In this document: positions 25,575 through 31,558 of the stretch, piece by piece
Numbering within the stretch: position 1 is the stretch's first letter
How the letters are laid out: each line of letters starts with the position of its first letter
Source: Pseudomonadota bacterium
Lineage (GTDB): Bacteria > Pseudomonadota > Gammaproteobacteria > Xanthomonadales > SZUA-38
Assembly: GCA_039033415.1 (NCBI GenBank)
Contig: JBCCCR010000013.1
Coordinates: 62,001 to 126,000, forward strand
Direction of reading: 5' to 3'
DNA length: 64,000 bases
Position numbers and translations under genes: made by a program
The notes under the pieces: generated by a model
Seen by the model: the letters and a program-made list of their open reading frames with translations, nothing else
Database searches by the model: none
What the model was told of the DNA's origin: nothing

Positions 25575-26735
25575 CTAGATTACGTTGACGCGGTTGCGAA
25601 CCGCGACGGTGGTGAAAAACACCTGGCGCAGACGCGAGTCGTCCACCGGGTCCACCGTGGTGCCGTTGAGGTTGTAGGTCTGATCATCGGTTTCCAGATC
25701 AGCGTTGTTGGTCGAGCGAAGCAGCAGCGACACGCGCATCGACACGATATTGGCCGGCGTGGTTACCAGATGCGGCTCGAGATAGGTCACGTTGCCCAGC
25801 CCGTCGAGCTCTCCAAACAGGAGCTGCATGTTCTCAACGCCTTCGATGATCTCTTCGGGCGTGGCGTCCGTGCCGTAGTCCATCTGGAAAAGCGCCGGCT
25901 GGCCGCCCGCGTTAACGCCGATAAAGAACATGATCGAATGAAATGGCAGCACCTGCGCTTCGTCGTTGTAGCTGCGGCTGAGTCCGGCCGCGAGATTGCC
26001 CGGCGTTGTGCCACCGTCGTTGAGCGAAAACGCCGCAGACCCGTCGTTGGTGCGCTGGAACAAGTCGCCGCCCGTGTTGCAGTCGGTGACCATCACCAGT
26101 CCACCACGCGGAAAGAGCTCGTCCAGCTCGGTCTGCGAATAGGGCGCTGCGGGTGTGGTTCCGCAGTCGACGGGAAAATTCAGGTTCAGATCGGCTGACG
26201 CGATATCGTAGCCACAGGCGGTGACCTGATCGACCGGCTCAGCGTACTTGATGATCAGGACGTCACTCCCAGGAACGGCGTTGTCGACAGCCGCCTGCGG
26301 GACCGCCAGAGCGCCAAAAGCCGTTGAGTAGTCGCCGGCATTGACCGCCCCCGTGCCCAGCGTCGCGGGCAATGCATAGTTGTCGTCGAGATCGGTCCCG
26401 TTAAATTCGAAGCCCACCACCGGCAGGTTGGGGTTGTAGATTGCCGCTTCGTAGCCCGGGGCGCCGTTGTCCAGCACCTCATTGGTCTGAAGCCTGGCAA
26501 CACAGAAGTTGGTGCGGCCGGCTGGGCGAAGCCGGGGCTTCAGGATCTCGATGGCGAAGCGCCCCGACTCCTGGACCCGGGACAGCGCCTGCTGTGCGCG
26601 GTAGGACTGGGAGGTCGAGTAAAACACCTGCGCCACACCGCCCATCACTACAATGCCGAGCAGCAGCGCGATCATCAGCTCAATCAGGCCAAAACCCCGG
26701 GCCTGTCGGATTGGCTGTCGGTCAAGGCGGCTCAT
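25575..26735 (-). CDS. pilW: Minor pilin PilW
   Basis: 386 residues. The prepilin leader and helix are QARG^FGLIELMIALLLGIVVMGGVAQVF, with Glu at mature position 5, then QALSRVQESGRFAIEIL typical of PilW. Large beta-rich globular domain with several cysteine pairs (TACGYD, DCGTT, TDCNTG). The ATG overlaps the TGA of pilV by four bases (ATGA), so the minor pilins are co-translated. Confidence 0.92.
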   Translation of the reverse strand: MSRLDRQPIRQARGFGLIELMIALLLGIVVMGGVAQVFYSTSQSYRAQQALSRVQESGRFAIEILKPRLRPAGRTNFCVARLQTNEVLDNGAPGYEAAIYNPNLPVVGFEFNGTDLDDNYALPATLGTGAVNAGDYSTAFGALAVPQAAVDNAVPGSDVLIIKYAEPVDQVTACGYDIASADLNLNFPVDCGTTPAAPYSQTELDELFPRGGLVMVTDCNTGGDLFQRTNDGSAAFSLNDGGTTPGNLAAGLSRSYNDEAQVLPFHSIMFFIGVNAGGQPALFQMDYGTDATPEEIIEGVENMQLLFGELDGLGNVTYLEPHLVTTPANIVSMRVSLLLRSTNNADLETDDQTYNLNGTTVDPVDDSRLRQVFFTTVAVRNRVNVI

Positions 26736-27205
26736 ATCCGCGTATCCATTTCAAACCACTGTAGCGCTGCATCGGTTGTGTCATAGCCAGCCGCGGTGGA
26801 TTGCGCAGCGTCGGTGCCGCGCTGCACCGTGTCGGCCCAGCTCAGGCGCACCGCAATGCGACAGCTGGTCGGATCACAAGCCAGGGCCCCGCCGTTGGGA
26901 CCGGTCACCTGAAGCTGACCGTTGGGAAGCACACCGCCGACAAAAGCCTGCCACTGGGCGAGCTGCGCCGCAGTCGGGCCGCCGTTCAGGGTGATCTGCT
27001 GACGATTCGCCCGAATCTGGTCGAGGATCTCGTAAGAAGCGTTGGTCGCCTGAGTTCGCATAAACGCGTTGCCGCTCGACCGCAGCGAAATACCCTGCAG
27101 CCCAGCCAGGCCAAGCAGCCCGAGCGAGAGGACCAGCACCGCGATCAATACCTCGATGAGCGTGGTGCCGCGCTGCGCGTGCCTCGGGGAACGTGAGATC
27201 ATCAT
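26732..27205 (-). CDS. pilV: Minor pilin PilV
   Basis: 157 residues. The prepilin leader and helix are QRG^TTLIEVLIAVLVLSLGLLGLAGLQ, then NASYEILDQIRANRQ, diagnostic for PilV. A cysteine pair (ALACDPTSCRIAV) near the C-terminus matches the family disulfide. Two adjacent ATG codons (27205 and 27202) could start it; the first overlaps the fimT stop. It primes type IV pilus assembly with PilW, PilX and PilY1. Confidence 0.92.
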   Translation of the reverse strand: MMISRSPRHAQRGTTLIEVLIAVLVLSLGLLGLAGLQGISLRSSGNAFMRTQATNASYEILDQIRANRQQITLNGGPTAAQLAQWQAFVGGVLPNGQLQVTGPNGGALACDPTSCRIAVRLSWADTVQRGTDAAQSTAAGYDTTDAALQWFEMDTRI

Positions 27206-27684
27206 GGACAGTTATTCCTTACAACGTTGATCCCGCCGGTGCGGGTAATAAAGATGTTGCGGTCGTTTTGCTGCTTGCAGCCGTCGGCCAGCACGTTGAC
27301 CGTGTAGGCAGCGCCCAGCCAGCCAGACGCCAGAAAGTTGAGCGGATCGGCCGAAAAGGCATAGCTGGCCTGTTGAATCGGCTCATAAACGCGCAGCGCT
27401 TCGTCTTCGGCGTCGACATAGTCGCCGTCGCTGTTCCCGTCAACCCACAGCTCGAAGCCGGTATTAAAGTCGCCGTCCATCGACCGCAGCGCCGTGGGGC
27501 GCCCGCGGCTGAGGGCCTCAGACCGCGCCAGATTGACCGCTTGAATCACGGCGTTCACCTGTGTCGTCGTCCGCTGCCCCTGCACAAACTGGTTGAAGCC
27601 TGGCACGCCGACGGCAATCATGATGGCCAGCACGGTCAGGGTGACCATGAGCTCGACCAACGTAAATCCCGATGTCCTGTTCAT
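27202..27684 (-). CDS. fimT: Minor pilin FimT/GspH family
   Basis: 160 residues. Leader and helix are MNRTSG^FTLVELMVTLTVLAIMIAVGVPGF with Glu5, then VNAVIQAVNLARSEALSRG and the GspH-type beta domain ending in RTGGINVVRNNCP. First gene of the minus-strand pilus operon fimT-pilV-pilW-pilX-pilY1-pilE. No clear promoter was located in the 120 bases before it. Confidence 0.92.
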   Translation of the reverse strand: MNRTSGFTLVELMVTLTVLAIMIAVGVPGFNQFVQGQRTTTQVNAVIQAVNLARSEALSRGRPTALRSMDGDFNTGFELWVDGNSDGDYVDAEDEALRVYEPIQQASYAFSADPLNFLASGWLGAAYTVNVLADGCKQQNDRNIFITRTGGINVVRNNCP

Positions 27685-28119: not shown

Positions 28120-28149
28120 TATAAAAGTAGAAATCGACAAAATTGGATT

Positions 28150-28189
28150 CCCGTGAAAAAATGATGAAAGCGATTTCTCAAGGCACGGG
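28150..28189. promoter_or_regulatory. Inverted repeat upstream of the RiPP operon
   Basis: CCCGTG (28150-28155) and CACGGG (28184-28189) flank a smaller GAAA/TTTC dyad. The stretch from 28120 to the hvfA start holds no gene; the promoter must lie here, but I see no convincing -35/-10 pair or known sigma-factor site. Confidence 0.25.
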
Positions 28190-28357
28190 TCTCTTAGAGC
28201 GTGACCGGGAGCTGTGCCCCACCCGCCACACTTGCGAAGTAAACGGGCACTGGTTGAAAACCGAGTTTCATCGAGAGGAGCGCCAGCGGATTTGGCCGCG
28301 AACGCCCGGTAAATGACGGCCCCAAAGGCCAAGCTTAAAAACTGAGGATTTACAAAC

Positions 28358-28801
28358 ATGTCCAAGCAATCATCGATCGTTATCAAGCCTCTGACCGCCG
28401 CTGTCGGCGCAGCGTTTGTTTCCACCTTTGCCCTGGGTACTGCGGCTGCGGCTGATAACCCGTTCGAGCTGACCGACCTCAACGCAGGTTATGAGCTGGC
28501 TGGTGAGAAAGACACCTCCGAAGGCTCTTGCGGCGAAGGCAAGTGCGGCGGCGACAAGGGTGAAGAAGGCGCCTGCGGCGAAGGCAAGTGCGGCGGCGAC
28601 AAAGGTGAAGAAGGTTCCTGCGGCGGCGATAAGGGCGAAGAAGGCTCTTGCGGCGGCGACAAGGGTGAAGAAGGCTCATGTGGCGGCGACAAGGGTGAAG
28701 AAGGCTCATGTGGCGGCGACAAGGGTGAAGAAGGCTCTTGTGGTGGCGACAAGGGCGAAGAAGGCAAGTGTGGCGAGGGCAAGTGCGGCGGCGCTGCCTG
28801 A
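28358..28801 (+). CDS. hvfA: HvfA/bufferin-type RiPP precursor with EGxCG repeats
   Basis: 147 residues. Residues 1-33 are a Sec-type signal peptide (LTAAVGAAFVSTFALGTAAAA). The mature N-terminus NPFELTDLNAGYELA matches the short conserved leader of EGKCG-type precursors. Residues 54-145 are a cysteine array: eleven EG-x-CG motifs, with x in order S, K, A, K, S, S, S, S, S, K, K, spaced by GGDKGE. In known HvfA peptides the Cys of EGKCG is oxidised by an MNIO enzyme to an oxazolone/thioamide copper-binding group. GAGG precedes the ATG at 11 bases. First gene of a three-gene operon with the MNIO and DUF2063 partners. Confidence 0.9.
   Translation: MSKQSSIVIKPLTAAVGAAFVSTFALGTAAAADNPFELTDLNAGYELAGEKDTSEGSCGEGKCGGDKGEEGACGEGKCGGDKGEEGSCGGDKGEEGSCGGDKGEEGSCGGDKGEEGSCGGDKGEEGSCGGDKGEEGKCGEGKCGGAA
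28520..28792 (+). repeat. 30-bp tandem repeat array encoding EGxCG units
   Basis: Within the precursor gene, a 30-base unit (GGDKGEEGSC) recurs. Two neighbouring units, around 28673-28732, are identical at the DNA level, including the rare TCA-TGT codons, which points to a recent duplication. The array length is likely to vary between strains. Confidence 0.85.
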
Positions 28802-28825
28802 ACCCGGTAATACCCTGCCAACTCC

Positions 28826-29695
28826 ATGAGTAACCACCCGGTTGCAGGAGCTGGACTTGGGCTGCGGCGGGCCCTCCTGGGCCCGCTGCGTTCCCACGCC
28901 AGCGACACTCAGGCCGATCCGACGGTAGATTTCTGGGAAGTTGCCCCGGAAAACTGGATGAACGTCGGCGGTCGGCTCGGACGAACTTTCCGCAGCTACA
29001 CCGAAAAGTACCCGTTTGTGTGCCACGGCCTGTCCCTTTCAATCGGGGGGCCTTCCCCGCTTGACGAGACCTTTCTGAAGCGCCTTAAAAGCTTCCTGGA
29101 CCAGCACCAGATTCGCGCCTACAGCGATCATCTGAGCTACTGCACCGACGACGGCCATCTTTACGATCTCATGCCGATCCCCTTCACGGAGGAGGCGGTG
29201 GACTACGTGGCGGAGCGTATCCGTCGCACGCAGGATATTCTCGATCGGCGTATCGCGATCGAGAACGTTTCTTACTATGCAGCGCCAGGCAAGGAGATGG
29301 ACGAAATCACGTTCATCAATGAAATCATTAACCGCGCCGACTGCGATCTCCTGCTCGATCTGAACAACATCTACGTCAACAGCGTGAACCATCGCTACGA
29401 CGCCAAAGCATTTCTGGCCGCCCTGCCCGGCGAGCGCGTGACCTACTGCCACGTTGCGGGCCACTACAACGAGGCCGAGGATCTGATTGTCGACACCCAT
29501 GGCGCCGCGATTATTCCGCCGGTGTGGGCACTGTATCGAGAGGCCTGCGAGCTCTGGGGACCCCTTCCGGCCCTGGTAGAGCGCGACTTTAACTTCCCAC
29601 CCATCGCCGAGCTGCTCGACGAGGTGGAGAACATTCGCAGCATCCAGCGACAGGCGCCCGAGCGCGGTGAGCCTGTCGCACAGGCGAGCGCCTGA
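28826..29695 (+). CDS. hvfB: MNIO-type RiPP maturase (DUF692, HvfB/BufB)
   Basis: 289 residues, TIM-barrel DUF692 family. Metal-ligand motifs in order: [39 protein letters not shown] and HVAGHYNEA plus DTHG, which supply the His, Asp, Glu and Asn ligands of the multinuclear iron centre. These enzymes oxidise Cys residues in precursor peptides. It starts at an ATG 24 bases after the precursor stop with no clear Shine-Dalgarno, so translation may depend on the upstream gene. The stop overlaps the hvfC start (TGATG). It acts in the cytoplasm on the precursor before export. Confidence 0.93.
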
Positions 29696-30456
29696 TGTCC
29701 CGGCTCAGCGAACTGCAGCGGCAGTTCGCCGGCCACATCCGTAACCCTGGCGAGACGCCGGCGCCGGATGACATCGAAGACCGCCGCATGGCGATCTACC
29801 GCGAGTTGTTTTTCAACAACATTCAGGGGTTCATCGCCAACAACTTCCCGGTGCTGCGGAAGCTTTACACCAAGCAGCGCTGGCACGATCTCGTTCGCGA
29901 TTTTTTTGTCCGGCACCGCGCCCACACGCCGCTGTTTCCTGAACTGCCTCGCGAGTTTCTGCAGTTTGTGCAGGATCACCGCGGTCCGGAACACGGCGAT
30001 CCGCCGTTTATCCTGGAGCTAGCGCACTACGAGTGGGCCGAGCTGGCGCTGTCGCTGGACGAAGCCGAACAATCTGACGTTGCTGTCGATCCGGACGGCG
30101 ATCTGATCGCCGGCGTGCCCGCGCTGTCGCCGCTGGCCTGGTTGCTGAGCTACGAATACCCGGTGCACTTGATCAAACCCGAATTCCAGCCTGAATCACC
30201 GCCGGACGAACCGACGCACCTGGTAATTTATCGGCGCAGCGACGACAAGGTGCACTTTCTCAAGCTGAACGGCGTAACCGCTCGACTACTTCAGCTGTTG
30301 CAGCAGGACCCGGGCCAGACCGGCCGACGTTATCTGGAGCTTATCGCTGGCGAGCTGGGTGCAGAAAACGCTGAGGCAATAGTTCAGGCAGGCACGGGAA
30401 TTCTGGCCGACCTCGCAAAGCGCGAGGTGATTCTCGGCACCGCTCCAGCATCCTGA
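29695..30456 (+). CDS. hvfC: RiPP maturase partner protein (DUF2063, HvfC/BufC)
   Basis: 253 residues. The N-terminal DUF2063 domain shows the typical start LSELQRQFAGHIRNP, the segment RMAIYRELFFNNIQGFIANNFPVLRK and RDFFVRHRAHTPLFPELPREFL. The C-terminal part (HLVIYRRSDDKVHFLKLNGVTARLLQLL) resembles a PqqD-like RiPP recognition element. The family brings the precursor to the MNIO enzyme. Its ATG overlaps the hvfB stop by one base, so stoichiometric co-translation is expected. No DoxX-type fourth gene (HvfD) follows; rnt comes next. Confidence 0.92.
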   Translation: MSRLSELQRQFAGHIRNPGETPAPDDIEDRRMAIYRELFFNNIQGFIANNFPVLRKLYTKQRWHDLVRDFFVRHRAHTPLFPELPREFLQFVQDHRGPEHGDPPFILELAHYEWAELALSLDEAEQSDVAVDPDGDLIAGVPALSPLAWLLSYEYPVHLIKPEFQPESPPDEPTHLVIYRRSDDKVHFLKLNGVTARLLQLLQQDPGQTGRRYLELIAGELGAENAEAIVQAGTGILADLAKREVILGTAPAS

Positions 30457-30552: not shown

Positions 30553-31206
30553 TTGAGTCAGACAAAATCACCCATCGCCCGGCGCTTTCGTGGTTTTCTT
30601 CCGGTTGTTGTGGATCTGGAAACCGGGGGCTTCGACTGTCAGGAGCACGCGCTCCTCGAAATGGCTGGCTGCCCGATTGAAATGACTGACGAGGGCGTCG
30701 TGAGGCCTGGCCCCACCGTTGCGGTGCACGTCGAGCCCTTTCCCGGATCCAAGCTGGACCCCAAATCGATGGAGATCACCGGGATCATTCCCGATCACCC
30801 GCTGCGTCAGGCGGTCGATGAGAAAGTTGCGCTACAGACCTTTTGCCAGCCGGTTCGCGAGGCGATGAAAGCGGCGGGTTGCGGGCGCGCAATCCTGGTG
30901 GGCCACAACCCGTCCTTTGACCTCGGGTTTTTGAACGCAGCCATTGCCCGAACGGGCTATAAGCGTTCCCCGTTTCACCCGTTTAGCAGCTTCGACACCG
31001 CAACGCTGGGTGGTTTGGCTTTCGGGCAGACCGTACTGGCGCGGGCGACCCGCGCGGCCGGCATTGACTGGGACGCCAACGAGGCCCATTCGGCAATCTA
31101 CGACGTGGAGAAAACGGCGGCGCTCTTCTGTGCCATCGTCAACCGATGGCACAGCGAGCTGGGAATTCCCTGGTCGGACGTTACGGCGGAGGAATCCGCA
31201 AGCTGA
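30553..31206 (+). CDS. rnt: Ribonuclease T
   Basis: 217 residues. DEDD exonuclease with Exo[15 protein letters not shown], Exo[16 protein letters not shown] and Exo[18 protein letters not shown] (His and Asp). The N-terminal [12 protein letters not shown] is typical of RNase T. It trims the 3' ends of tRNAs and other small RNAs. The start is a TTG with AGGACA 6 bases ahead; no ATG lies near the family N-terminus. It converges on the glutaredoxin gene. Confidence 0.94.
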
Positions 31207-31225: not shown

Positions 31226-31558
31226 TTATCCGGTCAGCTGGTACTGAACATCCAGCTGCTCAACCATCGGCACCAGCTCACCCTGCACGTGGAGTTCGCG
31301 CAGCAGCGTGGCGCCGCCCAGGCACTGTCCGTTCAGAAAGACCTGGGGTAACTCTGAGTAATCGGGTGACTTTTGCAGGAGCGCACGCAGCTCCGGGTCG
31401 CGCTGGATGTCGACGCTGTGAAAACTCACGCCGGCGTCGGTGAGGGTCTCGATCGCCTCAAGCGACTCACGACAGCTCGGCTGCTCGGGACATCCGCGCA
31501 TAAAGACACACACGGGATAACGGTCCAGCAGCTGCTGGAGCCTGACGCTGACTTCCAT
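31226..31558 (-). CDS. Monothiol glutaredoxin-like protein with altered CGFS motif
   Basis: 110 residues, thioredoxin fold in the Grx4/GrxD pattern: VCVFMRGCPEQPSC, SVDIQRDPELRALL, LPQVFLNGQCLGGA. The family's PSCGFS active site reads PSCRES here: the first Cys is kept, but Gly-Phe is changed to Arg-Glu. GrxD proteins use CGFS to hold a [2Fe-2S] cluster with glutathione and BolA. An extra Cys sits six residues upstream (RGCPEQPSC). Loss of the CGFS loop may change cluster binding. ATG start with a strong GGGAGG. Confidence 0.85.
   Translation of the reverse strand: MEVSVRLQQLLDRYPVCVFMRGCPEQPSCRESLEAIETLTDAGVSFHSVDIQRDPELRALLQKSPDYSELPQVFLNGQCLGGATLLRELHVQGELVPMVEQLDVQYQLTG

Follow-up and report, generated by a model that had tools for sequence, protein, structure and literature searches.

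What does an operon make whose precursor peptide carries eleven EGxCG motifs, only four of them EGKCG, and are the other seven motifs substrates of its modifying enzyme as well? This question is raised by three co-directional genes at 28358-30456 (+ strand) of a 64,000-nucleotide stretch of DNA, hereafter the window, from a gammaproteobacterium of the Xanthomonadales (lineage SZUA-38; assembly GCA_039033415.1, contig JBCCCR010000013.1, positions 62,001 to 126,000). They encode a precursor, an MNIO enzyme and a DUF2063 partner in this order, and an earlier note, made from the sequence alone, had described this tight operon with coordinates and content that proved exact. By analogy with characterized homologues, we consider it highly probable that the operon makes a captophorin, i.e., an oxazolin/Buf_EGKCG peptide, in which all EGxCG cysteines are converted to 5-thiooxazoles, which is exported by Sec and binds Cu(I), and for which the serine and alanine motifs are normal substrates. 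Our grades of confidence for this reading and for its rivals overlap and do not sum to one. The family itself is already described (oxazolin/Buf_EGKCG, "captophorins"), and the operon adds a well-delimited member to what is a widespread family of copper-binding ribosomally synthesized and post-translationally modified peptides (RiPPs).

The identity of the three genes was determined with the curated NCBIfam cut-offs for HvfA, HvfB, HvfC, bufferin maturases and MbnB, alongside a Pfam scan. All three proteins score above the HvfA/B/C cut-offs. The hvfA-like precursor gene (28358-28801, +), an open reading frame (ORF) of 147 aa, matches NF050137 ('HvfA family ... RiPP metallophore') in three stretches with 28.2 bits against a cut-off of 19.5; it is the only match of this model in the genome at E <=0.1, while no Pfam match to it was found up to E 0.1. 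After 24 bp follows the hvfB-like MNIO gene (28826-29695, +; 289 aa), with 431.5 bits for NF003818 (HvfB, cut-off 360) and 350.7 bits for PF05114 (cut-off 25). Its stop overlaps by one base (TGATG) with the start of the hvfC-like partner gene (29695-30456, +; 253 aa), which comprises DUF2063 (PF09836, 93.6 bits) and an NGO1945 C-terminal domain (PF22106, 109.8 bits) and scores 326.3 bits for NF050145 (HvfC) against 142. The locus combines an HvfB-subfamily MNIO, an adjoining HvfC (PME1) partner and an EGKCG-type precursor directly upstream, three features of HvfABC/captophorin clusters. The fold matches agree: an AlphaFold2 (AF2) model of the MNIO, with a predicted local distance difference test score (pLDDT) of 83.6 from 34 aligned sequences, matched 3BWW first (E 9.2e-24) and then TglH and MbnB structures, and the partner matched 3DEE (E 7.2e-12).

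The earlier note had called the operon HvfABC/bufferin-type. By family models and fold the first half of this label stands, while the second does not hold in the narrow sense: the MNIO reaches 273.1 of the 310 bits required by the bufferin maturase model NF050167, and the precursor has no DUF2282 match and 11 cysteines instead of 6 or 12. Bufferins 1 and 2 (Buf1/DUF2282, Buf2) share with the window a related MNIO and the DUF2063 partner, and the window peptide probably works like a bufferin without being one in this sense. Methanobactin (MbnABC) was rejected too, as the MbnB model TIGR04159 gave 44.7 against 325 bits.

The core array (28520-28789, +) consists of eleven EGxCG motifs and seven GDKGE pentapeptides. 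Two 15-residue units, EGSCG-EGKCG-GDKGE and EGACG-EGKCG-GDKGE (28520-28609, +), precede five 10-residue units EGSCG-GDKGE with isolated serine motifs (28610-28759, +) and a terminal EGKCG-EGKCG pair (28760-28789, +). Along the array the third motif position, x, reads S,K,A,K,S,S,S,S,S,K,K. This confirms the count of four EGKCG, six EGSCG (one at the front and a block of five) and one EGACG given before. Owing to the strict pentapeptide lattice, neighbouring cysteines are always 5 or 10 residues apart, and Tandem Repeats Finder (TRF) recognized the array as a tandem repeat with periods of 15, 30, 45 and 90 nt.

At the DNA level, the five short units differ in six columns, all of which are third codon positions and all synonymous. 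In a relative from the same genus (G001), the six variable columns among its four short units likewise are all third positions. Six of six by chance has a probability of ~0.0004 for one set, while the columns are not fully independent as the units copy one another. Since TCC, TCT and TCA are all used, serine is kept while its codon drifts. The relative's array reads SK-AK-AK-S-S-S-S-KK against SK-AK-S-S-S-S-S-KK in the window, i.e., three long and four short units against two and five, with 93% identity between the two MNIO proteins. Thus, between two species of one genus, whole units were gained or lost and the protein pattern was kept. A chance or compositional artefact was ruled out by the NF050137 match, the TRF result, the synonymous-only variation and the closely similar array of G001.

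How ordinary such an array is was addressed by a survey of relatives, as the earlier note had proposed for variants of x. It was anchored on the MNIO gene and therefore not selected on the x residue. We combined all 52 HvfB matches over the cut-off from 61 near genomes, the window's own included, with 87 of 92 further such matches from 274 genomes of the class (G125, G147, G239, G256 and G275, which all begin no more than ~850 bases from the contig start, were left out) and with the best 80 of at least 584 confirmed relatives in named genomes. Of 225 loci retrieved, six had been set aside, namely L001, L143 and L144 as further copies of the window or genus locus and L002, L145 and L146 as the other MNIO. 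From the remaining 219 we retained 163 different precursors, each with two or more [ED]GxCG motifs; 14 arrays were identical to a retained one, 20 loci lacked any candidate precursor ORF, and in 22 the candidate had at most one such motif. Some of the dropped loci stop at a contig edge, others carry different Cys motifs behind a similar leader.

Among the 1126 motifs of this survey, which does not sample the family at random but concentrates on the order and class of the window, x is K in 902, S in 124 and A in 20, while the other 80 comprise Q 27, N 20, R 18, E 5, T 4, G 4, M 1 and H 1; R may be under-counted, as the scoring of candidate ORFs marked down Arg content. Precursors with K only are most frequent (95 of 163), followed by other mixtures (35), K with S or A (28) and S/A only (5), and S occurs at x in 34 of 163. 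The median is 7 motifs, the maximum 18, and 13 of 163 precursors have at least eleven. In the published survey of the Buf_EGKCG type, about 2,000 precursors of 31-506 aa are reported, one of them with 58 Cys (PMC12452194). Compared with these counts, both the mixture at x and the eleven sites of the window are usual for the family, and its array is neither odd nor exceptionally expanded, contrary to what had been supposed. Among the 163 arrays of the survey, 19 that have two or more long spacings keep such a 5/10-type register from end to end. EGSCG did not occur in the text of the MNIO papers among the literature matches listed; figures and supplementary tables were not covered, and a published count is possible.

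The five S/A-only precursors (L009, L012, L013, L030, L192) each lie beside an MNIO gene without internal stops. An HvfC-like ORF is present in 158 of the 163 loci, including four of these five, and was not detected in L030. With whole EGSCG/EGACG arrays beside HvfB genes, the survey indicates that lysine at x is not required in nature. Most simply, HvfB-type enzymes would tolerate various small or polar residues at x, with serine as a common alternative. By parsimony, the presence of serine requires 22 changes on an MNIO tree that was built quickly and has several long branches; at least 9 are forced by well-supported branches. None of 500 shuffles clustered serine as strongly, which is expected for related lineages.

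The enzymes of the different classes are alike where contact with the substrate is expected. In FonB, R15, R16, D249 and F250 are reported to be linked to substrate choice and catalysis (PMC13097082). The equivalents in the window MNIO, mapped from the residue types and spacing in that paper without aligning FonB itself, are R14, R15, D254 and F255, all present. These residues are invariant in the mixed (28/28) and S/A-only (5/5) classes, while K-only enzymes have them in 93, 94, 95 and 93 of 95 cases and the remaining enzymes in 32, 35, 35 and 32 of 35. An adaptation of the enzyme to serine was sought in nine conserved MNIO stretches compared across the K-only, mixed and S/A-only classes and was rejected, the four contact positions being without class difference. 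Besides, D101 in place of E occurs in the window MNIO and in 3 of 5 S/A-only, 2 of 28 mixed (window included), 5 of 95 K-only and 2 of 35 other enzymes.

The chemistry expected for the window peptide follows from its homologues. The products of FonABC, HvfABC and NgoABC are reported to carry 5-thiooxazoles, with a loss of 4 H each (PMC13097082; preprint PMC12668002; PMC13419390), and for oxazolin an earlier oxazolone/thioamide assignment was revised accordingly (PMC13097082, PMC13419390). The oxazolone/thioamide ligands named in the earlier note are therefore superseded for this MNIO group. In the window, HvfC would bind the N-terminal region of the precursor, and HvfB, with a mixed-valent diiron centre and O2, would convert each EGxCG cysteine to a 5-thiooxazole with a loss of 4 H per Cys; HvfC is described as required for the active mixed-valent iron state (PMC13419390). 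The modified peptide would leave by Sec and bind periplasmic Cu(I) through the thiooxazole sulphurs, against copper excess. EGSCG and EGACG would be normal substrates, and the array would drift in length as units of 10 and 15 residues are gained or lost. All or nearly all of the eleven cysteines are probably substrates. In vitro, FonBC is reported to accept Ala, Arg and Thr at x but hardly Phe or Glu, the latter severely impairing modification (PMC13097082). Up to four Cu are reported for fontiphorin with its seven sites and one or two for gonophorin (PMC13097082). Up to eleven metal sites, as once suggested for the window, are thus probably too many. With probably about two rings per copper, judging from homologues, its eleven sites might hold approximately five or six Cu, probably about one copper for every two sites.

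The placement of lysine and serine adds a complication. If a motif without a neighbouring motif five residues away is called isolated, the 26 precursors with both K and S have 60 of 77 serine motifs isolated, compared with 12 of 117 lysine motifs (105 of 117 are in runs), counts that are inflated where one Ser unit was copied in tandem. When x was permuted inside each precursor, the mean was 34.6 isolated serine motifs (standard deviation 2.8), and none of 5000 permutations reached 60. Counted by precursor, serine was the more isolated in 20 cases against 1, with 5 ties. Thinning by MNIO identity left 17 to 0 with 5 ties (<80%), 12 to 0 with 5 ties (<70%), 3 to 0 with 3 ties and 6 precursors left (<65%) and 3 to 0 with 1 tie (<60%); as few precursors remain under 65% identity, the number of independent cases is small. 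Within runs, SK or AK steps occur 11 times in six precursors, three of them from the window's own family (L003, L017, L019), and KS or KA never. Several counts speak against a general rule. In runs, K is also followed by N (5), Q (2) and R (2), isolated motifs survey-wide are most commonly K (206 of 323), and all-Ser arrays have runs as well. Compensation by lysine in the linkers is unsupported, with a mean of 1.42 Lys in the six residues after isolated S and 1.43 after isolated K, while Asp/Glu number 1.86 after S versus 1.05 after K. We conclude that the bias toward isolated serine and adjacent lysine is a real tendency, possibly lineage-bound, and a testable hint on how substrates with many sites are processed and how copper is shared among rings.

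Several points weigh against the captophorin reading as given above. The split between adjacent and isolated motifs could mean that two kinds of motif are handled differently. The published FonBC work, as far as available to us, mentions no experiment with Ser at position 3 (PMC13097082). Moreover, the FonBC data are not cleanly transferable, since the same-order relative L016 carries a natural EGECG array (five EGECG, then five isolated EGSCG) upstream of an MNIO with the standard contact residues, yet Glu is poor for FonBC. Copper induction is not universal, because Microbulbifer MmrABC is reported as undetected in proteomes with or without added copper (PMC12538549). Finally, a scan of 5 neighbouring proteins in the window found no copper regulator and no DoxX protein.

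The first of these points leads to a reading with two classes of sites. Adjacent EGKCG pairs would be the primary sites, at which the enzyme enters and which form two-ring copper clamps. The isolated EGSCG motifs, which the GDKGE spacers keep at 10-residue intervals, would form a second class, with the x residue as a code for the type of site. This second class may be modified later or less completely, or may bind copper between distant rings or chains. We regard this reading as unlikely.

A stricter version is that HvfB acts only on the four EGKCG motifs and leaves the EGSCG block as free thiols, i.e., as a spacer, redox buffer or weaker thiolate ligands. Besides the placement bias (60/77 versus 12/117, 0/5000 permutations), it draws on the report that FonBC modifies a two-repeat but not a one-repeat minimal substrate (PMC13097082). 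However, K is also often isolated across the family and FonBC reportedly tolerates Ala and Thr at x (PMC13097082), while the five S/A-only precursors beside MNIO genes free of internal stops imply that there the Ser/Ala motifs are substrate, or else that the adjacent precursor is none. A modification restricted to EGKCG thus appears distinctly improbable. Of the two options that the earlier note had offered, the tolerant enzyme is favoured by the comparative data and by the in vitro tolerance of a homologue for Ala, Arg and Thr, while an array of modified and unmodified sites is less favoured.

Might the peptide handle another metal or stress, such as gold, zinc or oxidants, instead of copper? 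The related Legionella GIG operon is reported to respond to gold and copper (PMC5413113), and the Microbulbifer operon was not copper-induced in the work cited above (PMC12538549). Fontiphorin, gonophorin, bulbicupramide and oxazolin (PMC13419390 for the latter), in contrast, are all reported to bind copper, and we judge such a role to be quite improbable. That the Ser block is a decaying or selfish, slippage-made expansion without function is least credible. In its favour, the unit numbers vary between two species of one genus (short 5 versus 4, long 2 versus 3); against it, the variation in the short units is all synonymous and Ser motifs recur in many lineages.

Returning to the captophorin reading, its export and recognition steps concern the N-terminus of the precursor. 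Residues 1-32 (28358-28453, +) were judged and bounded by eye as a Sec-type signal peptide, with a Lys, a hydrophobic stretch and an AAAA-D junction, and the precursors of relatives have similar N-termini. According to the published account, HvfBC prefers full-length HvfA with its signal sequence (PMC13419390), and the Sec peptide of HvfA therefore acts like a leader. In the window, the putative signal peptide is followed by the leader segment NPFELTDLNAGYELAG (28457-28504, +) with the pattern L..GY, which precedes the array in 129 of the 163 surveyed precursors and is a possible recognition element for the partner protein. Similar leaders before different Cys motifs fit a constant recognition part with a variable core, and in Microbulbifer MmrA a conserved leader and a variable core are reported (PMC12538549). 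Against leader recognition speaks the report that, in a shortened substrate, single Ala substitutions ahead of the core were all tolerated by FonBC (PMC13097082). Among the loci dropped from the survey, L141, L193, L194 and L206 have HvfB-type enzymes next to precursors whose N-terminus is HvfA-like but whose Cys motifs differ (e.g., CGxxCGG or MxCG). An AF2 model of the precursor from its single sequence had a pLDDT of 43.7, from which neither a beta-helix nor disorder can be concluded.

Among known systems, oxazolin (HvfABC) of Haemophilus influenzae has in common with the window the gene order ABC, the HvfA/B/C cut-offs, EGKCG repeats and a Sec-type N-terminus (the window's by eye), but its six reported modified cysteines lie in EGKCG repeats, while seven of the window's eleven motifs are non-Lys. 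The captophorin fontiphorin (FonABC, Fontimonas thermophila) shares the minimal ABC cluster, the R/R/D/F residues and the motif family; it has seven sites compared with eleven, and the window differs by Ser/Ala at position 3. With the Buf_EGKCG/oxazolin family as described by Antoine et al. (PMC12452194), the window shares a precursor with repeated EGKCG and, judged by eye, a signal peptide, its 147 aa falling inside 31-506 aa. It differs from those members that have a 17-residue repeat with two EGKCG and a beta-helix, as its units have 15 and 10 residues and no confident fold. Such a repeat would give a spacing of 12, which is not the window's; in the survey, spacings between non-adjacent motifs are mostly 10 or 11 (114 and 91 of 537), while 12 occurs in 55 of 537. 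Bulbicupramide (MmrABC, Microbulbifer), reported as a copper chelator, likewise combines MNIO, DUF2063 and EGKCG cassettes with a conserved leader and a variable core, but has five to eight Cys (PMC12538549) against eleven. In 12 of the 163 surveyed precursor ORFs an EF-hand-like pattern resembling the published EF-hand_5 type was seen, and in L010, L023, L026, L031 and L122 EGxCG motifs are joined to EF-hand-like DxDxDG segments.

Upstream of the operon, a probable ribosome-binding region (28344-28357, +) with GAGGA at 28344-28348 was located by eye, and ~200 bp immediately 5' of the precursor gene are well conserved in G001. A promoter scan gave a single weak sigma-70-like match (28134-28162, +), part of which falls within a short stretch common to G001, while no regulator binding site was identified upstream of the operon. 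A second MNIO gene of the same genome (L226:4402-6026, -; contig C4 about 196,400-198,030) reaches 266.7 bits for PF05114 and, with 193 against 360 bits, stays below the HvfB cut-off. No Cys-rich precursor was apparent alongside it in the ORF lists; by eye, a DUF2063-like gene follows and a sigma-factor-like gene is divergent. Type IV pilin-like genes (N_methyl, GspH; 26732-27684, -) lie divergently just upstream of the window operon. Downstream, at a distance of 96 bp, an RNase T-like exonuclease gene (30553-31206) is followed by a glutaredoxin gene on the opposite strand (31226-31558). Of 60 surveyed loci with sufficient sequence, 8 likewise have RNase T downstream in the same orientation; seven of these are named, six of them as Lysobacterales, Xanthomonadales or Rhodanobacteraceae. 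This neighbourhood is probably plain synteny.

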